Virus record (IMG/VR): IMGVR_UViG_3300035034_001068
Coordinates: 1 to 20,085 of that record
From: a virus
Length of the DNA stretch: 20,085 nucleotides
Direction: 5' to 3' (one strand)
The position numbers and the translations under genes are program-made. Each line of letters starts with the position of its first letter. Positions within the stretch are counted from its first letter, which is position 1. Below the pieces are notes generated by a model. It had not been told where the DNA came from and made no database searches. It saw only the letters and a list, made by a program, of their open reading frames with translations. Shown here one piece after another: positions 1,474 to 20,085 of the stretch.

Positions 1474-3669
1474 TTAGTCAAGGTTTTTAAATCTCTCCAT
1501 AATACCAGTGATGGCAACGTCCGATAACTTATCCTCTTGGATGAAGTCATTTTTCTCTACCAATTGTTTTGTAACAGATTCGTTCTTCTTCATCTTTCTA
1601 GTAGACCAGAAATGTGAGACATTAGACTCTGTTGTTAAATCTGGGTAAAGTCTAGCTTGTGATAAGATACTTACCTTCGCTTTATCCTCTAATTGTTCCC
1701 AGATTGGTTTGATGTCACTAGGCATCAATCTAATAAGTCTATCTTCAAGAGATTCCTCTTGAACTGACAGTGCTTCTTTCATAAGCTTTAGTACGTCTCC
1801 GCTTGTGAAGAAATTGCCCTTCTCGTTTATATGGACAATAACTGATTCTTGTTCGTCTTTAGACAAGTCGTAGAATGAATCTACTTGTGACTTGTTTAAG
1901 AAGTTCAAGAAGTGATGCTCATTAGTTTCAGAAGCTTTACGTTTCTTAGCTTCTGTTATTAAGTTATCTATTTGTACTGATAATTTCGTTTTTTTCGTTT
2001 CTCCCATCATTTCCTCTTCTTCTTCAGCAGATGGTTCGCCTTCCATTCCTGGCTCAGCTAATTCATCATCTGAATTTTCATCTCCGTATTCAGACTCAAG
2101 ACCTTCTTCGCCAGCTTCTAATTCGCCAGCAGCCTCATCATCATCATCACATACAACGTGACAGTTTTCACCACCTTCGTCTTCAGAGTCAAATTCACTA
2201 TCAAGTTCGCCATCTGGCTCACCATCAGTAACATCCATAGCATCACCTTCCATGTTAGGTTCTTCAACCGCATCAAAGCCTGCATCCTGTGGAGTAGGGA
2301 ATGTTTCTTCTTCTTCTTCGCTTCCGAATGCTTCATTAATTTTAGAATTTGAATTCAATTTTTCAGAAATCATCTTCGTGTAACTAATTGATTTATCTAA
2401 TCCTTCTGCGATATAATCAGAGTAAGAAATGTTATCATCTAAGTTTTCAGCGATATACTCAGAGTATGCAATATTACCTTCTAAATTCTCTGCTAAATAT
2501 TCAGAGTAAGAAATGTTGTTATCTACATGCTCAGCGATGTATTCACCATATTCAATATTTTTGTCTAAGTTTTCAGCAATATATTCTGTATAATCAATGG
2601 TTTTATCCAAGTTTTCAGCAATGTATTCTGAATAGTCAATATTTTTAGATAAATTCTCAGCTAAATAATCAGAAAAACTAATAGATTTGTCTAAGTTTTC
2701 AGCAATGTATTCATTATACTTAATAGAATTATCTAAATTCTCTGCTAAATAATCAGAAAATTGAATAGATTTATCAACTTTCTCAGTGATAGATTGATTA
2801 CTTTCAATTATTTTTGTTTGATTATTTCTCAATTCTTTGTTTTCATTAACTACGAATTGAATCTTTTCAGCTAAGTAATCTAAGTACTTAACCAATTTAC
2901 CGTTATCGGTTTGTAAACTTTCATAATAAGCTAGTAATTCATCCATTTTCTTAGGAGTCAAATCACCTTTTTTCAAAGCTTCGTTTACTTTTTTTCTAGT
3001 GTCACCAAGCTCACCCACTAAATATTGTGAGTACTCTGCTAACTGCTGTTTTGTTACTAAATCATTCTGGTTCATGTTGAATAACTCGTTAATTTTTGTC
3101 TCATCTTCCATAGAGTAAACTCTAAAGTTTGAGTTATTTGAATATCCACAAGATTCATTTATTGATGACATTTTAGCAGAACCAAATCCTGGGTCAGCTA
3201 CGATATCATAAGTGAAAAGCTTTTTAAGTGTCACCGAACCATCAGATTCAGTAATACCAGCCGCTCTTGAAGATACGAATAGAGGAAGTTCATCATCTAC
3301 AATAGATTGGGCTTCCTTACCCCATTGTGTGTTCAAAAGTTGAATTTTACCTTCTACTATATTTGCTTCTTGGTTATAAGAAATATCTTTAATAACGTGT
3401 GAGGCTCTTGCTAGAGATGTGTCAAACACATCTGGATGGTCAAATTCACCAAAAACAACACCTAATGATGACATTCTAGTTTGTAACTCTTCTAAACAAG
3501 GTAAAAACCTATCAGCAGTGTAAATTCTTTCATTTCTGTTCTTTATATCGAACTCAGTAAAAGGACCTCCTAATATGTATTTTTTCTTGCCAGTTTTATC
3601 AACCTCAACTTCTTCATTTAGACTCAATGAGTTGTTGTGATTTTTTTGTACAATCATTACGTTTTTCAT
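1474..3669 (-). CDS. 21: Prohead protease fused to prohead core scaffold (gp21-gp22-like)
   Basis: 731 residues from ATG 3669. Residues about 28-172 resemble the T4 gp21 / herpes-type assemblin serine protease: GEFDHP with His78, FVSSRA with Ser134 and TYDIVADPGF with Asp155 as the probable triad. An (I/L)-x-E tripeptide (INE, 170-172) closes this domain and may be an autocleavage point. Residues about 200-300 are helical. Residues 301-440 are ten tandem 14-residue repeats of the form NISYSEYIAENLDK. Residues 451-556 are very acidic, and 557-731 form a Lys/Glu-rich helical C-terminus. T4 gp21 has about 212 residues and its scaffold gp22 is a separate gene; here no separate gp22, gp67 or gp68 is seen between gp20 and gp23, so this one gene probably supplies both protease and core. 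Every repeat contains [IL]-[AS]-E, the gp21 cleavage consensus. The protease call is strong; the scaffold role is inferred from position, composition and repeats. Confidence 0.88.
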   Translation of the reverse strand: MKNVMIVQKNHNNSLSLNEEVEVDKTGKKKYILGGPFTEFDIKNRNERIYTADRFLPCLEELQTRMSSLGVVFGEFDHPDVFDTSLARASHVIKDISYNQEANIVEGKIQLLNTQWGKEAQSIVDDELPLFVSSRAAGITESDGSVTLKKLFTYDIVADPGFGSAKMSSINESCGYSNNSNFRVYSMEDETKINELFNMNQNDLVTKQQLAEYSQYLVGELGDTRKKVNEALKKGDLTPKKMDELLAYYESLQTDNGKLVKYLDYLAEKIQFVVNENKELRNNQTKIIESNQSITEKVDKSIQFSDYLAENLDNSIKYNEYIAENLDKSISFSDYLAENLSKNIDYSEYIAENLDKTIDYTEYIAENLDKNIEYGEYIAEHVDNNISYSEYLAENLEGNIAYSEYIAENLDDNISYSDYIAEGLDKSISYTKMISEKLNSNSKINEAFGSEEEEETFPTPQDAGFDAVEEPNMEGDAMDVTDGEPDGELDSEFDSEDEGGENCHVVCDDDDEAAGELEAGEEGLESEYGDENSDDELAEPGMEGEPSAEEEEEMMGETKKTKLSVQIDNLITEAKKRKASETNEHHFLNFLNKSQVDSFYDLSKDEQESVIVHINEKGNFFTSGDVLKLMKEALSVQEESLEDRLIRLMPSDIKPIWEQLEDKAKVSILSQARLYPDLTTESNVSHFWSTRKMKKNESVTKQLVEKNDFIQEDKLSDVAITGIMERFKNLD
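2350..2769 (-). repeat. Ten 42-bp coding repeats (14-residue units) in the scaffold region
   Basis: Ten consecutive 42-base units encode residues 301-440 of the protease-scaffold protein. The consensus unit is [SN]I.[YF]SEY[IL]AENLD[KN]. All ten keep an (I/L)-x-E tripeptide; the last reads MISEKL. The period of 14 equals two heptads, consistent with a coiled-coil rod. DNA copies differ at synonymous positions, so selection appears to act on the protein. Confidence 0.9.
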
Positions 3670-3841: not shown

Positions 3842-5593
3842 TTAGAATTCGAAGTCATCATCTCCACCAGCATCATCTCCACCAGCATCATCTCCGCCGG
3901 CATCATCACCAGCATCTCCACCCGCATCTCCACCGAAGTCATCTCCACCGCCGAAGTCATCATCTCCACCGAAGTCATCACCTCCACCGAAGTCATCACC
4001 TCCACTATCACCTCCGCCATCAGCAGCTCCTCCTGAGCCACCTGCTATACCAGAAGGATGTTTTTCCCACATAGCTCTATTTTCTTGCTTTTCTTCTTCT
4101 GTGAGTTTCATTATAGTATCAATAAGGTATTCCACATGGAAATAAGGCTTATCATCAACAGTGATTGTACTCAGCATACTAGCCACAATCTCACCTCTTT
4201 TTTGTAGGTTATTTAATCGCTTCCACTCTTCGAATAAATCATTTGAAAAGAATTCAACATTTACATCATTCAGGAATGTTGAGTCGTCCATTAATTCCGG
4301 ATATTCAATTAGCATTTGAAGTTTTAATGGCTTAACAACAAGTTCTTTGAATGTTGTTCTCAGCCTGGATATAAAGTTTGAAAATTTAACTTCATCCCTT
4401 GTCATTTCAGATGCATCTGAATATATATTACCACCACCATTATCAGAATCAAATCGTGTAAATGGAATTCTAGAAGCTCTTTTAAGTGCATTAAAGAACC
4501 ATGTTAGCATGTCGCTCTCGTTAAGGTCATGTCCTTCTGGAGAGACTAGTTCCATATCAGGAGTGCCGGTATCACCCTCTGGAAACCAAATTTGTTTATT
4601 ATATGGTAGGTGCTTTTGTCCATTAATTTGAACAGTTCCTAAATCATCATCGAATTCTATTTCTTCACTATAATCCGAAATCAACTGAGCAATTTGCTCC
4701 TCTGCCCTTTGTCTAGAAATACCTTGTACTGGAATGGTGAATTTCTGATATACTGTAGCATGAACCATGTTATACATGATTTTAGTTTGCTCAATAATTT
4801 TTAGTTGATTATACGGTCTGATTAAGCCTTCTACATAAGAAGTTTCAGAATAATCATTCTGTGTTTTATATGAGATATAAATCAATTGTGAGTCCAATAG
4901 AACCCTTCTCAGTTGAGGGTCTTCTGGATATTGAATCCAGATGTGCTCACCTGTTGTTGGTTCGAATCCAGGTACAAAGGTAGCTGCATCTAATTGCTCA
5001 AAACTAATAATAGTTTGTTGCTTATCATCATAGATAATTTCAAATGCTAAAAAGCCATCTACTAAAAATGCTTTGAAGTATTCCCAAGCCATCTTACCAT
5101 CGTTAAATCCAAATGCTTGATAAATATCATTGAAAGCTTCTTGATAACGGTCTTTAATATCCTGTGAAAAATCTTCGGATAATGAAGTTGGTGAACAGAA
5201 ATCTTTCTCATCATCATACACAATTCCTTCATCGGCAATTGTAGTTACAAAATCCTTAATTTCATCTTTAATTGAATACTCTCTTAATATTCTTCTCTTA
5301 TCACCATAAGATTGGTCTAAATAAGGTATAGACTTTCGGTTCATTATTGATGCAATAGCCCTTTGTGAAAAGAAGTCATACATACCATAATTTTTAACTG
5401 CCTGTGGGTCTTCGTTGATACCAATTGCTACTCTATTACGAGAAACCATATCGTCGTAATTCATACCCCACGAAGAAAGATTTCTAAGAACTTTACTAAA
5501 GAAACTTTTATTCTGAGTTGAGCTAGACATATTACCTCCATCTGCGTAGGGATTATACTGACTAGAATTTTGTGGATTGTAACTTCCTGCCAT
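3842..5593 (-). CDS. 20: Portal protein, T4 gp20-like
   Basis: 583 residues from ATG 5593. The portal forms the dodecameric ring at the special vertex through which DNA is packaged and to which the neck attaches. Features typical of gp20-family portals include an N-terminal segment on recurrent MYDFFSQRAIASIMNRKSI, a clip/stem part with long helices, WFFNALKRASRIPFTRFD and the following EMTRDEVKFSNFISRLR segment, which corresponds to the strongly conserved gp20 C-terminal core (ALRIPSSRL... followed by RDE-x-KF). T4 gp20 has about 524 residues; the extra length is largely a Gly/Asp tail (515-583). The gene is first of the minus-strand block gp20, gp21/22, gp23, matching T4 order without gp67 and gp68. 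A weaker AT-rich box (AAATATATAAT on the minus strand, 5614-5624) lies about 20 bases upstream. The start is preceded by an A/T leader with no Shine-Dalgarno. Confidence 0.9.
   Translation of the reverse strand: MAGSYNPQNSSQYNPYADGGNMSSSTQNKSFFSKVLRNLSSWGMNYDDMVSRNRVAIGINEDPQAVKNYGMYDFFSQRAIASIMNRKSIPYLDQSYGDKRRILREYSIKDEIKDFVTTIADEGIVYDDEKDFCSPTSLSEDFSQDIKDRYQEAFNDIYQAFGFNDGKMAWEYFKAFLVDGFLAFEIIYDDKQQTIISFEQLDAATFVPGFEPTTGEHIWIQYPEDPQLRRVLLDSQLIYISYKTQNDYSETSYVEGLIRPYNQLKIIEQTKIMYNMVHATVYQKFTIPVQGISRQRAEEQIAQLISDYSEEIEFDDDLGTVQINGQKHLPYNKQIWFPEGDTGTPDMELVSPEGHDLNESDMLTWFFNALKRASRIPFTRFDSDNGGGNIYSDASEMTRDEVKFSNFISRLRTTFKELVVKPLKLQMLIEYPELMDDSTFLNDVNVEFFSNDLFEEWKRLNNLQKRGEIVASMLSTITVDDKPYFHVEYLIDTIMKLTEEEKQENRAMWEKHPSGIAGGSGGAADGGGDSGGDDFGGGDDFGGDDDFGGGDDFGGDAGGDAGDDAGGDDAGGDDAGGDDDFEF
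3845..4051 (-). repeat. Gly/Asp low-complexity tail of the portal protein
   Basis: This stretch codes for the last 69 residues of the portal, almost entirely Gly, Asp and Ala, in irregular units such as GGDDF, GGGDDF and AGGDD, ending DDDFEF. The DNA is correspondingly a degenerate short repeat (tcatctccacc-type units on the plus strand), richer in GC than its surroundings and likely to change length by slippage. Confidence 0.85.
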
Positions 5594-6892: not shown

Positions 6893-6988
6893 TATTTATA
6901 TATTTAATTACTGAGTATAATATATGAAATTTAATATATGTGTTATGAGCATTTTTTATAACGGGGTGTGATTTTTAATATATACCAC

Positions 6989-8683
6989 ATGGTAAAAACT
7001 AAAAATTTCATAGAGAAAAGTAAACATAGATTTGGTGATATTTATACTTATGTAAATTCAATATATGTAAATAAACGAACTAAAATAAAATTCCATTGTG
7101 ACATACATGGTGAGTTTTCACAATTACCACATAATCACCTTAGTGGTAATGGTTGTCCAAGATGTAATAAAGATAGAATAGAAAGACTACGAGCCGAATC
7201 ATTCATTGATAAATGCATAGATGTGCATAAAGGTAAATATGATTATTCGTTAACTAAATATGAAAAATCATCATCAAAGGTCGATATTATATGCACTGAA
7301 CATGGTATATTCACACAAATAGCATCCAATCATATTAGCGGTAAAGGTTGTAAGAAGTGTCAATATGAAAAATTATCAAATGAGTTCAGTATATCAAATG
7401 AAGAGTTTATAGCTAAGTCAGTTAAAGTGCATGGTGATAAATATGATTATTCACTCATTGATTATAATAATAGGTCAAGTGAAATTGATATAATATGTGT
7501 TACACATGGTGAATTTAAGCAGAGACCTGTTAACCATTTAAATGGTTCTGGATGTAAACTTTGTGAGGCACCTAATTTAAGTTCTAGGAAAGAAAAGCTT
7601 AAGAATAAATTTGTCGATGATATAGTTATATTATCGGAGGAAAGTAATAATTTTTTTAAATTTAGATGCCATATACATGGTGAGTTTATAAAAAAATTCG
7701 ATAATGTGATTAACTCTAAATTTGGGTGTAATGAATGTGCCTCAGTAAAAAGACATAAATATAATTTAATGAGTAGTGATGAATTCATTGAACGTTCAAA
7801 TCATATTCATAAAAATGAGTATAATTATGACTCTGTTGAATATAAAGGTATGAATAAGCCAGTATTTATATACTGCGAAACACATGGATTCTTCGAGCAG
7901 AAACCTATACATCACCTAAGAGGTTCAGGGTGTTTTATATGCTCACTATCAAAGAGGAAAAAGATTAGATATGGTGATTATGTACAAATGGCGAATGATG
8001 TACACAAAAATAAATTTAAATATAATATACATGAGAAATGGCGTGGTATTTCGGGACATATCGAGATTGAATGTCCAGAACACGGTAAATCTACACAAAG
8101 GTGTGATTCACATTTGAGGACAAATGGGTGTGCTAAGTGCGGCTATGATAAATTATCCAATAGTAAAACAAAATCTACTAATGTTGTAATATCCGAATTT
8201 AATGAAATTCATGGGAATAGATATGATTATAGTAAATATGAATATATCGGATGTATTGATAAATCTACTATAATTTGTGAAATTCATGGTAATTTTGAAC
8301 AAACTGCGACCTTGCACCGAAGGGGATGTGGTTGCCCAAAGTGTAATTCTAGTAAAGGTGAGTCTAAAATAATTAAAATATTAGATGATTATGAATTTGA
8401 TTATGAAATAGAGAAAATATTACCAGGAACTAAATTAAGATTTGATTTTTATTTAACATATGAAAAAATTTATATTGAATATGATGGTAAGCATCATTAT
8501 GAATCTATTGAATATTTTGGTGGTGTTGATAATTTAAAATCGGTTAGAATTAATGATAAACTGAAAAATGATTATTGTAAAGAGAATAACATTAAATTAA
8601 TTAGAATACCATATTGGGAGTATGATAGTATTGAATATATACTATATGATGAATTAAAAATAAAAAAACATAATGATAAATAG
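6989..8683 (+). CDS. Repeat-zinc-finger endonuclease, probable homing endonuclease
   Basis: 564 residues from ATG 6989; an in-frame GTG lies seven codons upstream, but the ATG is preferred. Seven imperfect repeats of about 57 residues fill the first four fifths: 'FI.K...VHG.KYDYS...Y.....KV.I.C..HG.F.Q.P..HL.G.GC..C'. The paired Cys plus Cys/His look like a small zinc-binding module (DUF723-type); the fourth repeat is degenerate. The last ~110 residues form a Vsr/PD-(D/E)xK-like nuclease: GES, LRFDFYL, IEYDGKHHYE, then NDKLKNDYCKENNIKLIRIP. This architecture is common in phages, where such genes behave as free-standing homing endonucleases; the repeats probably bind DNA. The stop overlaps the gp4-like start by 11 bases, so it sits directly against a conserved head gene, a typical position for a homing element. 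It is even more AT-rich in wobble positions than the structural genes. Confidence 0.8.
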   Translation: MVKTKNFIEKSKHRFGDIYTYVNSIYVNKRTKIKFHCDIHGEFSQLPHNHLSGNGCPRCNKDRIERLRAESFIDKCIDVHKGKYDYSLTKYEKSSSKVDIICTEHGIFTQIASNHISGKGCKKCQYEKLSNEFSISNEEFIAKSVKVHGDKYDYSLIDYNNRSSEIDIICVTHGEFKQRPVNHLNGSGCKLCEAPNLSSRKEKLKNKFVDDIVILSEESNNFFKFRCHIHGEFIKKFDNVINSKFGCNECASVKRHKYNLMSSDEFIERSNHIHKNEYNYDSVEYKGMNKPVFIYCETHGFFEQKPIHHLRGSGCFICSLSKRKKIRYGDYVQMANDVHKNKFKYNIHEKWRGISGHIEIECPEHGKSTQRCDSHLRTNGCAKCGYDKLSNSKTKSTNVVISEFNEIHGNRYDYSKYEYIGCIDKSTIICEIHGNFEQTATLHRRGCGCPKCNSSKGESKIIKILDDYEFDYEIEKILPGTKLRFDFYLTYEKIYIEYDGKHHYESIEYFGGVDNLKSVRINDKLKNDYCKENNIKLIRIPYWEYDSIEYILYDELKIKKHNDK

Positions 8684-10299: not shown

Positions 10300-11325
10300 A
10301 TGTCATTAAGAGCAGAATATATTTGGTTAGATGGTAATGAGGTTCAATGCCTGCGTTCAAAAACAAAAATTATAGATACTAAAGAAAAATACATGAGTCC
10401 TGATGTCGTACCAGATTGGAATTTCGATGGCTCTTCTACTAAACAAGCAACCACGGATAACTCAGAAATGATTTTAAAACCGTATAAAACATGTAAAAAT
10501 CCTATTGATGGAGGTATTTTAGTTTTATGTGGCGTTTATGATACTGAAGGTAATCCACATTCCACGAATCATAGGGCTAAGTTAGAAAAAACTGTATCAC
10601 AAAAGGATAAGGAAACTTGGTATGGATTTGAACAGGAGTATATAATATACGATAACGCAACTAAAAGACCATTAGGTTGGTCTGCTGCTCCAGAAACATA
10701 TCCAGAGAAACAAGGTCAGTATTATTGTGGAGTAGGTGGTAATTACGTAGCTGGTAGAGAATTTGTTGAAGAGCACTTACAAAAATGCTTATCAATAAAT
10801 TTACAAATAGGTGGTATAAATGCCGAAGTTATGTTAGGTCAATGGGAGTATCAAATTGGTCCAGTAACAGCTTTGGATGGCTCAGACGAATTGTGGATTT
10901 CAAGATATTTACTTTATAGATTAGCAGAGAAATATAATTATTATATTAACATAGAACCTAAGCCGTTTAAAGGAGATGACTGGAACGGTTCTGGTATGCA
11001 TGTTAATTTTTCAACAAGTGACATTAGAAATAACATTAGTCGTAAGAAAGAATTAGCCTTTGAGTATTGTGAGAAACTAGAAGCTAAACACGTTGAGCAC
11101 ATTGCAGTTTATGGACAAGGGAATGAAGATAGGCTAACCGGTTCTAACGAGGCTCCTTCAATAAATGAATTCAAATCTGGTATTGGAGACAGAACAGCAT
11201 CGGTCAGAATACCTTATAGCATTCTGGATAGACACACAAAGGGTTATATTGAAGATAGAAGACCATCATCAAACGCAAATCCTTACGTAGTTGTTGAAAA
11301 ATTAATTAATACAATCTGTTCTTAA
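10300..11325 (+). CDS. glnA: Glutamine synthetase, type II (GSII)
   Basis: 341 residues, the usual length for the GSII class found in eukaryotes and in Bacteroidetes and other bacteria. It would catalyse ATP-dependent synthesis of glutamine from glutamate and ammonia in the cytosol. Conserved segments are all present: beta-grasp PDWNFDGSS (38-45), WYGFEQEY (107-114, metal-binding Glu111 and Glu113), NAEVMLGQWEYQIGP (Glu176, Glu183), KPFKGDDWNGSGMHVNFST (substrate/ATP region with His234), GIGDRTASVRIPY (Arg303) and GYIEDRRPSSNANPY (Glu318, Arg320, Arg321). No active-site residue appears lost, so an active enzyme is predicted. The start ATG follows an A-rich leader (aatatttaaa). The next gene starts one base after its stop, so it heads an operon with the winged-helix-like gene and adenylate kinase. 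A phage glutamine synthetase is an auxiliary metabolic gene, probably acquired from a host. Confidence 0.92.
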   Translation: MSLRAEYIWLDGNEVQCLRSKTKIIDTKEKYMSPDVVPDWNFDGSSTKQATTDNSEMILKPYKTCKNPIDGGILVLCGVYDTEGNPHSTNHRAKLEKTVSQKDKETWYGFEQEYIIYDNATKRPLGWSAAPETYPEKQGQYYCGVGGNYVAGREFVEEHLQKCLSINLQIGGINAEVMLGQWEYQIGPVTALDGSDELWISRYLLYRLAEKYNYYINIEPKPFKGDDWNGSGMHVNFSTSDIRNNISRKKELAFEYCEKLEAKHVEHIAVYGQGNEDRLTGSNEAPSINEFKSGIGDRTASVRIPYSILDRHTKGYIEDRRPSSNANPYVVVEKLINTICS

Positions 11326-11679: not shown

Positions 11680-12246
11680 ATGAAACACATAGTTATATTC
11701 GGAAAACCTGGTTCTGGTAAAGGAACAATGAGTGAATTAATCGTTAAGAATCATGAGTACATGAGCATGGTTGCTGGTGATTTACTAAGAACAGAAAAGA
11801 AATCTGGTTCAGAGTTAGGTAAAACAATAGCTTCTATAATCGATAAAGGTAATTTAGTACCAGACGAGATGATTAGTACGATAATTGGTGATGAAGTCTC
11901 AAATTTATCATATAAAATAGTTTTTGACAAAGAGACTGGTATTGTTTTCGATGGCTATCCAAGAAGTATTCAACAAGCTATCGACTTGGATACCTTCATC
12001 GATGTTGATGTTGCTGTATATCTTAAGTGTGATGAAGAAGTGCTCGTAAAACGCCTCCTAGAGCGGGGTAAGACATCTGGTAGAGAGGATGATAGTGATG
12101 AGGATATAATACGTGCTAGAATGAAAAACTATTTGGAAATAACAGAACCAGTAAAGGCTTACTATCAAAACCAAGGAAAATATATTGAAATAGACGGTAA
12201 CCGAGAGATTGAAGAGGTATTTAAAGATATAGAAACTTATTTATAA
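11680..12246 (+). CDS. adk: Adenylate kinase, short form
   Basis: 188 residues. Reversible phosphoryl transfer between ATP and AMP (2 ADP to ATP plus AMP) in the cytosol. Visible motifs: P-loop FGKPGSGKG (7-15), AGDLLR (32-37, AMP binding), KGNLVPDEM (56-64), FDGYPRSIQQA (90-100, the adenylate kinase signature), RGKTSGREDD (129-138) and RARMKNY (145-151). Arg129, Arg135, Arg145 and Arg147 are the expected phosphate-contact arginines. The lid between RG and RxDD is a few residues, so this is the short variety without the long zinc/LID insertion. GSELG and REDDSDE match bacterial Adk rather than cytidylate or thymidylate kinase, though UMP/CMP kinases share the fold. Third gene of the glutamine synthetase cassette, followed five bases later by a terminator hairpin. 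Confidence 0.88.
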   Translation: MKHIVIFGKPGSGKGTMSELIVKNHEYMSMVAGDLLRTEKKSGSELGKTIASIIDKGNLVPDEMISTIIGDEVSNLSYKIVFDKETGIVFDGYPRSIQQAIDLDTFIDVDVAVYLKCDEEVLVKRLLERGKTSGREDDSDEDIIRARMKNYLEITEPVKAYYQNQGKYIEIDGNREIEEVFKDIETYL

Positions 12247-12281: not shown

Positions 12282-12596
12282 TTAATCAACTATTTCTAAA
12301 AATTTATGATTTGTTAGTTTATCAGTATCCTTATTGTTATATGAGGAACCATGCCAACCACCTTGCTCACCCCAGTATTCTAGAGAATCTCCATTAGTAT
12401 TATCATTGAATTTAATATTATTCATTCTATAAAACTTTTGTATAAATTCTCCACTTGGATTCAATTGAGCATACTTGGCTTCGCCTGGTACACTACCTTC
12501 TATATCAGTTCTTTTAATTGTATTAACAATATTAATTTTATCCTCAACACTTTCTAACACTGTACTAAAACTTTCGAACTTTTTTAAATGTTTCAT
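12282..12596 (-). CDS. Unknown small protein with a capsid-targeting-like N-terminus
   Basis: 104 residues from ATG 12596. The N-terminal peptide MKHLKKFESFS resembles the short amphipathic leader (MKTYQEFI.E in T4 internal proteins) that directs proteins into the prohead; however no clear (I/L)-x-E cleavage tripeptide follows, so support is weaker than for its neighbour. The remainder (VEDKINIVNTIKRTDIEG... WGEQGGWHGSSYNN) is unrecognised and has no membrane segment. It starts one base after the stop of the upstream gene on the same strand (12598), so the two are an operon, and it ends at the bidirectional terminator. Confidence 0.65.
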   Translation of the reverse strand: MKHLKKFESFSTVLESVEDKINIVNTIKRTDIEGSVPGEAKYAQLNPSGEFIQKFYRMNNIKFNDNTNGDSLEYWGEQGGWHGSSYNNKDTDKLTNHKFLEIVD

Positions 12597-12597
12597 G

Positions 12598-13092
12598 TTA
12601 GTTACAATCTTTTTCGAATTTATCTTTCATTGCTTGAATTTTATCTTCAAGGTCTACCTTATTTATATTTCCTATATGGTGTGATGTACCATTTACACCA
12701 ATTGCATAACCTTTATCTTTCTCATCCCAAACATAAATTTTCTTACCACATTTAGTATCTACATACCTTGTTTTAGTAGATTCATTTTTATCAATCGAAG
12801 CCATAGAGTCATCGAAACGCTCTAATTCATCTTCACGAACTCTACCACCGGATGAAATGCCTTGTGGGTTTATTAAGTTATATAATATAACACCCATGTC
12901 CACAAATGCATAATCAATAGTATACGACTCATAACGACCGTTTGACCAGTCTACTTTATCACCTTTGATGAATTTAGCACGTTGTAATAAGTTATAATCA
13001 GCATCACCTAATTGGGATTTTTGTTTATTTCTATATTCCTCGTCTAAGATAGAATTTTCATTTATAAATTGGTTATATTTCTTGATTGCCAT
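12598..13092 (-). CDS. Unknown protein with capsid-targeting-like leader, possible internal head protein
   Basis: 164 residues from ATG 13092. The first dozen residues, MAIKKYNQFINEN, closely match the T4 capsid-targeting sequence (MKTYQEFI.E) and contain INE, an (I/L)-x-E site for the gp21 protease. If the analogy holds, the leader would be clipped at Glu12 and the remainder (about 152 residues) packaged in the head. The following segment (FIKGDKVDWSNGRYESYTID... GRVREDELERFD) looks like a small SH3-type beta barrel; the C-terminus is helical (KVDLEDKIQAMKDKFEKDCN). Otherwise unknown. First gene of a two-gene unit with the gene at 12282-12596. Confidence 0.65.
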   Translation of the reverse strand: MAIKKYNQFINENSILDEEYRNKQKSQLGDADYNLLQRAKFIKGDKVDWSNGRYESYTIDYAFVDMGVILYNLINPQGISSGGRVREDELERFDDSMASIDKNESTKTRYVDTKCGKKIYVWDEKDKGYAIGVNGTSHHIGNINKVDLEDKIQAMKDKFEKDCN

Positions 13093-13139
13093 AATTATTA
13101 ATTTTTTTATACCTTATATATAAATATAACAAACTAGTT

Positions 13140-13164
13140 ATTTAATTAGTTATACTAATTAAAT
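13140..13164. repeat. AT-rich inverted repeat at the 3' end of the endonuclease gene
   Basis: ATTTAATTAG (13140-13149) and CTAATTAAAT (13155-13164) with loop TTATA. It spans the endonuclease stop codon (13155-13157). No U-run follows on the minus strand, so it is not a clear intrinsic terminator; it could protect mRNA ends or be incidental in such AT-rich DNA. Confidence 0.4.
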
Positions 13165-14669
13165 GCCTTATGAATATACTTATCCTGACCACACCCATAT
13201 ATTCGATAATAACCTCTTCCGTGCATTATTTCAACTTCGGTTTTATTTGAATCAAATCCTTCCTTAATTAATTTCTTTTTATTATAATTGAATCTATGCT
13301 TTCTAATACCTTCTATTACCCAATAATAATTAGGTTTAGTTCTATGTATAAAATTAAATCCGAGTGTTTTATATAAAACACCGGTGAACATAGAGACATC
13401 AGCATATGATACAATCGAATCACATTTATGATTATCAATGAAATGCTTGAATAATTTAGATGCTGAACCAATGATAATTAAATTTATTTTATTACAAAAT
13501 CTAATTAACTCAACCGAGTCAGATAATTTCCTTCTGTTACCAAAAGTCATTAGACTCACTAATACATTATCATGAAACAGACCGATTTTAAACTTAGCAT
13601 TTGAATAACCTTGTATATGATTTTCATTTAAAAATTTTCTCGCCTCATCGGCTCTCACATTTCTAATTTCACACTTTCGTGCATAAATTCTATCTTTAAT
13701 TAATTTAAGTCGATTTTTCAGTATTGATTCAATTATCAATCTCTTATAATTCCAATCATCTTCGAAAATATGAATTAAATCAATATTCAATTCCTTGCAC
13801 ATATTGGTTTTGTTTATATGATAATCTTTGCTTTTATATAGCTCAGAGTGCCAATACACACCATTAAATTCAATTGCTAATTTAATACTTGGTATATAAA
13901 TATCTAATTCATGTGGTGGTAAAATTTTTCTATCATTTCTAATATAAGTTATATTCAATTCATCGAGAAATTCACTTAATTCACTCTCAGCGAAAGAAAC
14001 TTTAGATTCGATTGTGTTACAATAAGTACATGCTTCGCTACCAAGTGAAAGTCTTGAACTCAATGTATCTTTATTTATATTGAAATTTTGTCCACAAGCA
14101 TTATGATGTATGTTGAAATATACACGCTCATATGATAATATTTTATAATCTACATTTAACAATTTAGAAAATTTATTAAATGTAGATTCATTCCTCTTAT
14201 TTCGTATATCGTTAATGATATTTACATCCTGGAATATATTCTCAACGCCATATTTAATTAAACACGTTTCTTTATATTTGAGTTTATACTCATCTGTTTT
14301 TGAATAATGGTCTACGCCATACTCATCAATCAATGAATTGGCTAATTTACTTTTACCTATTTTAGACTGCATGATATTCTCAACGCCATATTTACCTAAA
14401 TTGGTTTTTTTAACTTTAATCCATTTACAATCATTGCAGAAATAATCATCAGTTAGATTTTTCGTACATCTTAAATATTCACGATACTCTAACTCTTTTA
14501 CCGAATCGCAATTATCACACACACATTTTATGATTGTTGTTGAACCTTTAGTTAAATCTGTTATTTTAACTTTTACTTTTTCACCAACCTTTATCTCATA
14601 TCCTTTGTTACTATAGTGTTTAATATTTCTTGAATGTCCCTTTATACATACATATCCATCTACTATCAT
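13155..14669 (-). CDS. Large Vsr/EDxHD-like homing endonuclease with C-terminal GNAT-like domain
   Basis: 504 residues from ATG 14669. N-terminal zinc-finger-like pairs (C51xxC54 and C78xxC81), then three modules of the kind 'KYGVEN.MQ' (93-101, 117-123, 139-147), DNA-binding NUMOD-type repeats seen in phage endonucleases. Residues about 220-320 look like a Vsr-type (EDxHD) nuclease: AESELSEFL (Glu228/Glu230), ELDIYIPS (Asp256), LAIEFNGVYWHSE (Trp273-His274), YHINKTNMC and IHIFEDDW. Residues 330-465 resemble a GNAT-like module (ARKFLNENHIQG, LVSLMTFGNRR, GSASKLFKHF). Known relatives act as mobile homing endonucleases in T4-like phages. It begins 22 bases downstream of the gp55-like gene stop, a typical location for a homing element beside a conserved gene. 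A 10-bp inverted repeat (13140-13164) spans the stop codon. Confidence 0.8.
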   Translation of the reverse strand: MIVDGYVCIKGHSRNIKHYSNKGYEIKVGEKVKVKITDLTKGSTTIIKCVCDNCDSVKELEYREYLRCTKNLTDDYFCNDCKWIKVKKTNLGKYGVENIMQSKIGKSKLANSLIDEYGVDHYSKTDEYKLKYKETCLIKYGVENIFQDVNIINDIRNKRNESTFNKFSKLLNVDYKILSYERVYFNIHHNACGQNFNINKDTLSSRLSLGSEACTYCNTIESKVSFAESELSEFLDELNITYIRNDRKILPPHELDIYIPSIKLAIEFNGVYWHSELYKSKDYHINKTNMCKELNIDLIHIFEDDWNYKRLIIESILKNRLKLIKDRIYARKCEIRNVRADEARKFLNENHIQGYSNAKFKIGLFHDNVLVSLMTFGNRRKLSDSVELIRFCNKINLIIIGSASKLFKHFIDNHKCDSIVSYADVSMFTGVLYKTLGFNFIHRTKPNYYWVIEGIRKHRFNYNKKKLIKEGFDSNKTEVEIMHGRGYYRIYGCGQDKYIHKAFN

Positions 14670-14691: not shown

Positions 14692-15060
14692 TTAAATGTT
14701 GTGCATTCCTTGTCCGTCGTTAGACGAGTCTATACTAAACATTTTAACCGGATAATTATCATCGGAGCCCTTTCTCTTGTACAATTCGTTGAATCCCTTC
14801 GCTATACCACGTTTGAATATTTCAGTAAAATATGCAAATGCGTTTTTACTTTTCTCTTCATTGAAGTTATACCAGTTATCGAACATATCAACTAATCCAG
14901 ATTGATAACAATCCAATCTATCATCGTTGTTCCAATATCTCATTTTTTTAATTGTTCTTTTCGCAAGTAACTCTAACATTCCTTGTGCGCTTCTTGTTAA
15001 TCTACCTTGTGCCTTTGAAATAATAATTTCTACATATAATTCTTTATTTGATAAATACAT
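14692..15060 (-). CDS. 55: Late-transcription sigma factor, T4 gp55-like (short)
   Basis: 122 residues from ATG 15060; T4 gp55 has 185. gp55 is a small sigma that binds RNA polymerase core and recognises the late -10 box. Matches to T4 gp55: YLSNKELYVEI (T4 YVNNKELLQAI) at the N-terminus, and the sigma region-2-like stretch NFNEEKSKNAFAYFTEIFKR, GIAKGFNELYKRKG (T4 NFDETKYKNPHAYITQ..., QRIKKERKE). The C-terminus ends ...FSIDSSNDGQGMHNI, with no hydrophobic/acidic sliding-clamp motif like T4's SLDFLYE. The clamp-dependent activation step may thus differ, or the tail may have been lost. The homing-type endonuclease gene begins 22 bases after the stop. A 37-base AT palindrome lies just upstream. 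Confidence 0.78.
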   Translation of the reverse strand: MYLSNKELYVEIIISKAQGRLTRSAQGMLELLAKRTIKKMRYWNNDDRLDCYQSGLVDMFDNWYNFNEEKSKNAFAYFTEIFKRGIAKGFNELYKRKGSDDNYPVKMFSIDSSNDGQGMHNI

Positions 15061-18884: not shown

Positions 18885-19259
18885 ATGGCTTTTAACTTCA
18901 CAGACTTTTATGTTAAATATGATGGACACCCAAGGTATAATACACTTGAAGTAATCGAAGATGAGATTTTCGAGGTTATTGTACAGAAAATAGAAAATGT
19001 ACTATTTACTAATAAGGGAGAATTTATAGGTGACCCTGACTTTGGTGCTGATTTAGAGAAGTTTTTACACGAAACAAGAGTATCGGCAGACTTCGTTGAG
19101 CGTTCTATAATCGACCAGATTGGTGAGTATATTCCAGAGCTTGATTCATTTGGCTACACATTAGAAGTTACGTTTGCTGAAAATCCAAACAGTTATTCAG
19201 ATATGATGTTCGTATCTATAACATTTAAAGAAACTGAGGTTAACGCATTTTTCGCTTAA
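18885..19259 (+). CDS. 25: Baseplate wedge protein, T4 gp25-like
   Basis: 124 residues; T4 gp25 has 132. gp25 is a small wedge component at the sheath-baseplate junction and nucleates the tail sheath. The conserved core is ENVLFTNKGEFIGDPDFGAD followed by LEKFLHE (37-63), the GPW/gp25 signature (LFT..GE...P.FG..L...L.E). The rest has the usual helix-strand layout and ends VSITFKETEVNAFFA. ATG 18885 follows an AT-rich leader. The stop TAA overlaps the stop TAA of the convergent ADP-ribosyltransferase-like gene through TTAA. Confidence 0.88.
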   Translation: MAFNFTDFYVKYDGHPRYNTLEVIEDEIFEVIVQKIENVLFTNKGEFIGDPDFGADLEKFLHETRVSADFVERSIIDQIGEYIPELDSFGYTLEVTFAENPNSYSDMMFVSITFKETEVNAFFA

Positions 19260-20085
19260 TTCCAATTCGAACCACTGAAGAATTTATTATTAACTAATAG
19301 ACAAGGTTTATTTGTCCAAAGTTCAAATTGTGTATATTTTCTATCGTTGTATTTATTAGTTCTTCCGAAATATATATCAGAGTTGTACTTAACACTTTCG
19401 AATTGGTTCAATTCTGGGTCAAACATTTTCTCTATCCATTTCATTAAACCCCCTTCTTTCTCTAATTCTTCTTTAGTTATAATATCTTCACGGTCTTTGC
19501 CGGTCTTGGAATTTTCAAAGTTTAGGAATTGCATAAAATCCTCAGTTAGTGTTACGTTTTCACTTGTTTTATGATTAGAATTGTATATAGATTCAATTTC
19601 TTTTTTCATCTCATTAAGAGAATTATAATCCCAATTAGTAAGACCTAACTGACGAGTTATTTCTCTAGAAAAGTGTGACATATCTATACCAAACCTTTTA
19701 TTTATGTAAGTGAAGGAGCCATAAGTATCAGGTGTGAATCCCATTATAAACTCAGTATTCTCTTCTAATGGTATAACTCTGTAAGTTGAGCCTTCCGAAT
19801 CTCTACCATAGTTATAAGTAGCGTTTATATCATTGGTGCAGAATATTGACTCACTTCTAGGAATATATCCCGGGAATCTTCTCCACCGCTCCGATTCATT
19901 CATGATTAAGTTATAATAAAGCGGTACCGGCTCATCAGAGCTTCCTATATTACCTACTGGCTTTCTATTATGTCCCTTCGAATCTATTAATAAATAGTCT
20001 TCATTTGATTTTATGCCTCTGTATAAAGGAACTTCAGTCATATCTTTATTAATATACCAGGGAGCATATTCTTTAATTACATCGA
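19256..20085 (-). CDS. Putative ADP-ribosyltransferase (5' end outside window)
   Basis: Open from the right window edge to the stop at 19256, about 275 visible residues; an ATG at 20041 is not necessarily the start, because the frame stays open above it and reads DVIKEYAPWYINKD before MTEVPLYRGI. Pattern of an R-S-E ADP-ribosyltransferase fold: PLYRGI (R), RSESIFCTND (S/T segment), NYG, STYRVIPLEENTEF, and FELWTNKPCLLVN (the Glu of FELW as candidate catalytic Glu). T4 Alt, a packaged ADP-ribosyltransferase, modifies RNA polymerase; related toxins and phage proteins have similar spacing. The N-terminal extension is off-window, so a capsid-targeting leader could not be checked. Function is a fold-level guess. 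It overlaps gp25 by four bases tail to tail. Confidence 0.55.
   Translation of the reverse strand, partial: DVIKEYAPWYINKDMTEVPLYRGIKSNEDYLLIDSKGHNRKPVGNIGSSDEPVPLYYNLIMNESERWRRFPGYIPRSESIFCTNDINATYNYGRDSEGSTYRVIPLEENTEFIMGFTPDTYGSFTYINKRFGIDMSHFSREITRQLGLTNWDYNSLNEMKKEIESIYNSNHKTSENVTLTEDFMQFLNFENSKTGKDREDIITKEELEKEGGLMKWIEKMFDPELNQFESVKYNSDIYFGRTNKYNDRKYTQFELWTNKPCLLVNNKFFSGSNWN

Follow-up and report, generated by a model that had tools for sequence, protein, structure and literature searches.

Proteins packaged in phage heads are best described in T4. Experiments on the T4 internal protein IPIII by Mullaney and Black assigned residues 4 and 7 of the capsid-targeting sequence (CTS) to targeting, and residues 8 and 10 to processing (reviewed in PMC9026906). 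IPII and IPIII possess the same N-terminus, MKTYQEFIAEA, and about four such leader genes are found in the T4 genome. In giant phages such as SPN3US and phiKZ many ejection proteins are packaged and processed after Glu by a gp21-like protease (PMC9026906); this set is known from virion proteomics. Internal capsid proteins (gp142 and gp154) are also described for Sphingomonas phage PAU, in which a leader of its own, MKTLTxLYE, recurs on numerous genes in the neighborhood of those for portal, protease and capsid (locus L085, around 17747-25431) and differs from the class-1 leader described below. Huge phage genomes of 634-735 kb have been grouped as Mahaphages, which infect Bacteroidetes (PMC7162821). 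We found no published work on Mahaphage heads or huge-phage leaders in the open literature, although earlier reports elsewhere are possible.

In this study, two adjacent small genes from a virus contig were analyzed. Judging from sequence comparison, both N-termini probably serve as capsid-targeting leaders, in a system for loading the head that is of the T4 type but greatly enlarged in this group of phages.

Genomic context

The window, that is the whole stretch of DNA analyzed (20,085 bases), is one complete virus-contig record whose relatives are Mahaphages of 634-735 kb. Its portal protein displays 48-66% identity to those of LR756502, LR745206, LR756504 and LR756501, and this similarity places the window with the huge phages. 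Comparisons were made with LR756502 (642 kb, W01), an IMG/VR genome (508 kb, G001) and LR756501 (735 kb, W02), and with the more distant LR756500 (462 kb, W05). The features relevant to the two genes are collected in Table 1.

Several other genes are present in the window. A phage-borne glutamine synthetase is encoded at 10300-11325 (+; Pfam Gln-synt_C, 1.8e-20) and is followed by an adenylate kinase at 11680-12246; 345-aa proteins resembling this glutamine synthetase are found near the portal gene in several related loci. Large homing-endonuclease-like genes occupy 13155-14669 (-) and 6968-8683 (+), and one such gene lies immediately upstream of the two leader genes. A 261-aa protein encoded at 19256-20041 (-) matches phrog_12810 (unknown function, 4.1e-17).

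Table 1. Coordinates of the two leader genes and of head-related features in the window
Feature	Position	Strand	Evidence
gp21-like prohead protease fused to scaffold-like helical rod	1474..3669	-	phrog_207 head maturation protease, 1.8e-30
14-residue units in tandem (consensus NIxYSEYIAENLDK) that fit the class-1 motif	2362..2808	-	N-terminus-trained matrix
Portal protein, gp20-like	3842..5593	-	phrog_213, 2.3e-59
104-aa orphan ORF with class-2 (MKHLK) leader	12282..12596	-	ORF call, codon signal, class-2 enrichment
Leader MKHLKKFESFSTVLE of the 104-aa ORF; E8 and E15 are alternative candidate cleavage positions, neither of them canonical	12552..12596	-	Sequence; class-2 relatives
164-aa orphan ORF with class-1 (T4-CTS-type) leader	12598..13092	-	ORF call, codon signal, leader score
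Leader MAIKKYNQFINE of the 164-aa ORF; predicted gp21-type cleavage after E12	13057..13092	-	T4 IPIII spacing, conserved motif columns
Box TTTATATATA, candidate late-promoter element of the two-gene unit	13115..13124	-	Variant of AATATATA
gp55-like late sigma factor (late-transcription context)	14692..15060	-	phrog_234, 1.1e-07

The two genes and their relation to the T4 leader

The 164-aa ORF and the downstream 104-aa ORF are separated by 1 nt. Their in-frame codon-usage scores, +0.42 and +0.32 bits per codon respectively, fall in the range of known window genes (0.2-0.5), the other five frames are negative at both places, and codon usage thus supports that both ORFs are coding. No convincing homologue of either body was found among 50,697 phage records, 2.9 million viral contigs and eleven related huge-phage records. 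Weak matches from PHROG (0.009) and phmmer (0.013) were disregarded. The mature bodies have no Pfam match and no detected homology to T4 IPI, IPII or IPIII, and the AF2 model of the 164-aa protein was too poor for use (pLDDT 45.6).

The N-termini read MAIKKYNQFINENS in the 164-aa protein and MKHLKKFESFSTVLES (MKHLKKFESFS) in the 104-aa protein. In the former, MAIKKYNQFINEN reproduces the T4 CTS pattern Y-x-x-F-I-x-E, and Y6..F9-I10-x-E12 of the window has the same spacing as Y4..F7-I8-x-E10 of T4. CTS residues 4, 7, 8 and 10 correspond to columns 0, +3, +4 and +6 of the huge-phage matrix, and thereby to Y6, F9, I10 and E12. The leader scores 25.4 bits on this motif, well outside what chance would give, and the originally noted match to the T4 internal-protein leader, with its INE tripeptide, is confirmed. 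The 104-aa leader reaches 7.2 bits on the same class-1 motif. Aromatic residues of the targeting type are present in both proteins (Y6/F9 and F7/F10), while [LI]-x-E right after the second aromatic is found as I10-N-E12 in the 164-aa protein and is absent from the 104-aa protein, which reads FSTVLE. The MKHLKKFESFS start that had been noted for the second gene is correct, but it belongs to a separate class and not to the T4-type pattern. The predicted loading through the gp21-type pathway has good support from comparison; the 104-aa protein, being of the other leader class, lacks the canonical tripeptide.

A matrix built only from huge phages was applied to 266 T4 ORFs. The three top-ranked ORFs were IPIII (17.9 bits), 61.1 (17.5 bits) and IPII (16.8 bits), which amount to about two independent observations, since IPII and IPIII have one common leader. 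The fourth ORF scored 5.0 bits, and IPI was ranked ninth. The 61.1 protein (NC_000866 18966-19130; L270), which is annotated only as hypothetical, starts with MKTFKEFIKED and scores level with IPII and IPIII, suggesting that it may be a further T4 internal protein.

The T4 internal proteins IPI, IPII and IPIII and the class-1 proteins of huge phages are alike in carrying a short N-terminal Y/F-x-x-F-I-x-E of identical spacing on unrelated small proteins. Both kinds of phage encode a gp21-type protease, and leader genes are often adjacent in both. Unlike that of T4, the huge-phage leader has an extra basic and hydrophobic stretch (IKK), and a second class, MKHLK, exists besides. Huge phages also differ in the number of leader genes, from tens to about a hundred per genome, in the fusion of protease and scaffold with 14-residue repeats, and in bodies unrelated to the T4 internal proteins.

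Distribution of the two leader classes

The strict N-terminal pattern M-x(1-7)-[FY]xx[FY][ILVMST]x[ESN] was found in 36 of 987 ORFs from W01 (6.8 with shuffled N-termini as background), in 19 of 777 from G001 (4.9) and in 59 of 1041 from W02 (6.5). For the position matrix a cut-off of 10 bits was used, which corresponds to about one false N-terminus per genome. The matrix from W02 alone retrieved 40 leaders in W01 at this cut-off (1.3 expected), and the matrix from W01 and G001 retrieved 67 in W02 (1.4 expected). A total of 31 leaders were found in W05 against 2.7 expected. When the DNA of 2.9 million viral contigs was searched for KKYN[QE]FINE without anchoring, each of the 20 matches fell at a protein N-terminus, though several represent one gene repeated in overlapping contigs. 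At locus L348, four tandem genes possess a single leader and four different bodies. Other proteins with the same leader, for which a search had been proposed, are thus plentiful in the relatives.

The signal is limited to some lineages and is not universal, as seen from its near-absence in PAU (2 of 303 ORFs over the class-1 threshold), in the Lak phages of the same Mahaphage clade (one match in 515 ORFs, with about 83% of the genome covered) and in RaK2, the negative control (0 of 567 ORFs). RaK2 had been considered as a lineage with virion proteomics and was dropped for having no leader at all. PTm1 was rejected as an independent lineage, with six weak matches against 0.6 expected and no clear leader family.

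The leader of the 104-aa protein belongs to a distinct class, MKHLK-x-[FY]..E(S), represented by MKHLKKFNES, MKHLKLFESF and MKHLKTFEGFS. The pattern M[KN][HN][LIV]xx[FY] opens 63 ORFs in W01 (0.3-0.6 expected) and 29 in G001 (0-0.3 expected). Glu follows within four residues in 54 and 25 of them, respectively, and the next residue is mostly Ser. The absence of the T4 cleavage tripeptide makes the processing of class-2 proteins less certain. The bodies are diverse, with 98 ORFs from W01, G001 and W02 falling into 82 clusters. A class-2 gene array was observed at about 10-36 kb of W01, several members of which have a common body bearing a DILLELxDDG-like segment. With both classes counted, each of the three relatives has about 55-105 proteins that begin with such a leader and are otherwise unrelated.

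An upstream box common to leader genes and head genes

The box AATATATA precedes 79 of the 194 class-1 genes at a distance of up to 60 nt, compared to 380 of 3128 other genes (p 7e-22). Because the box was derived from leader genes, the independent evidence comes from the structural genes: it was found at 12 of 23 T4-like structural genes, a few of whose assignments are doubtful, and at 2 of 35 genes of the replication type (p 8e-5). Both leader classes have the box in common with portal, protease and capsid genes. Class-2 genes carry it in 32 of 63 cases in W01 and 16 of 29 in G001. In the window the genes for protease/scaffold, portal, gp4-like and gp25-like proteins are preceded by the box. 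The 164-aa gene has no exact copy and only the variant listed in Table 1, the same form as is found at the portal gene of W02. The T4 late promoter TATAAATA was also considered and showed no enrichment upstream of leader genes, where the AATATATA box is found instead.

Bodies of the leader proteins

The 194 class-1 ORFs (at least 9 bits, four genomes), including a few false positives such as an ATPase with the N-terminus MIICEIGIRGYKSFG, fall into 155 body clusters, of which 136 are singletons. In an alignment of 96 leader proteins, conservation is confined to xxIKxYxxFINE. Pfam and PHROG matches among the class-1 proteins include methyltransferases, polyphosphate kinase 2, a CCA/poly(A)-type nucleotidyltransferase and a T4-type RNA ligase, as well as NUDIX, radical SAM, DHH and HNH proteins. 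It is a matter of speculation whether RNA ligase, tRNA nucleotidyltransferase and tRNA methyltransferase might act in early repair of tRNA damage inflicted by the host. Several proteins with a leader resemble ordinary enzymes that would not have to be packaged, which would be a point against head loading. Part of the leader-gene count could stem from duplicated genes whose bodies have since diverged.

Proposed head loading

At the level of sequence, targeting to the head by a pathway of the gp21 type has good support from the match at the CTS residues, the retrieval of T4 internal proteins, the protease encoded in the window and the upstream box common to head genes. According to the proposed mechanism, both small proteins would be made late in infection, alongside the head proteins, and each would dock, by the aromatic pair of its leader, onto the scaffold core while the prohead is growing. 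Cleavage by the gp21-like protease after the leader glutamate (E12 in the 164-aa protein) would then free the mature body in the head, and the body would leave the head together with the DNA. All of these steps, from docking and cleavage to residence in the head and delivery, are inferred. The large number of leaders suggests that particles of these phages may contain a large and mostly unstudied set of proteins.

Repeats in the protease/scaffold fusion

A refinement of head loading, which we consider a serious possibility though somewhat short of an even chance, is that the class-1 leader represents a detached copy of one 14-residue unit of the protease/scaffold rod, so that the cargo would join the core by packing like a repeat. 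When the N-terminus-trained matrix was run over all internal positions, the protease/scaffold proteins of W01, G001 and W02 gave 12, 12 and 11 matches and alone stood out, the next-best protein having at most three in each of the three proteomes. Permutation of the repeat units gave p values of 0.0015 (window) and 0.00075 (W02). Between 34 and 37 homologues of the protease/scaffold were aligned, and 37 homologues possess 7-14 units each. The repeat region (residues 239-439) was predicted by AF2, with moderate confidence, as a single helix of 200 residues. Small proteins joining a leader-like start to scaffold units were also found at 271117-271314 of G001 and 715658-716576 of W02. However, the reciprocal search of N-termini with the scaffold motif was weak, with clear enrichment only in W02 (13 against 1.05) and negative scores for the window leaders. 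W05 has strong leaders yet degenerate repeats (mean -2.2 bits, p 0.02), and no such repeat matches were found in T4 proteins by the internal scan with the leader matrix. Moreover, the I/L-x-E common to leader and repeat may denote a protease site and not docking.

The fusion protein of the window also has an acidic linker. In W02, a 207-aa protein (619760-620383) has a stretch of GVSGSSG-like repeats and, behind it, three repeats of the scaffold type.

A broader proposal, which we regard as tentative and rather doubtful, combines the detached scaffold repeat with preloading: about 5-10% of genes, among them RNA-repair, methyl-transfer and nucleotide enzymes, would bear either leader and have their products placed in the head for the start of infection. 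If head loading by the leaders is right, the N-terminus alone would list candidates for head-packaged proteins in the largest known phages, most of which are unannotated, and many of these proteins might act on the host ahead of any phage gene expression. A leader copied from a scaffold repeat would also provide a recognition code for the ten-residue T4 CTS, which may resemble a repeat of the scaffold that it has to join.

Other readings of the leader

The leader might instead be mainly a recognition tag for the protease, the motif being the context of gp21-type cleavage and the bodies entering the head by other means. This conforms to the conservation of I/L-x-E, which is also found in the scaffold repeats and near the N-terminus of the capsid protein (INEN/MNEN). 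We consider it unlikely, as the aromatic pair and the upstream I-K-K are conserved equally to the E, and targeting in T4 rests on the two aromatics (PMC9026906). For T4 IPIII, a leader in which E was replaced by D is reported to load its cargo uncut.

A signal unrelated to the capsid (for another phage compartment, stability or translation), or a residue of gene-family expansion, would agree with the tandem class-2 arrays with related bodies in W01 and with leader genes often being neighbors, but is very improbable given that the bodies are mostly unrelated in both classes, that T4 internal proteins are retrieved and that the upstream box is common to head genes. An account of the leader at the RNA or codon level is unsupported: codons at the conserved leader residues match genome usage, which indicates that selection acts on the amino acids.
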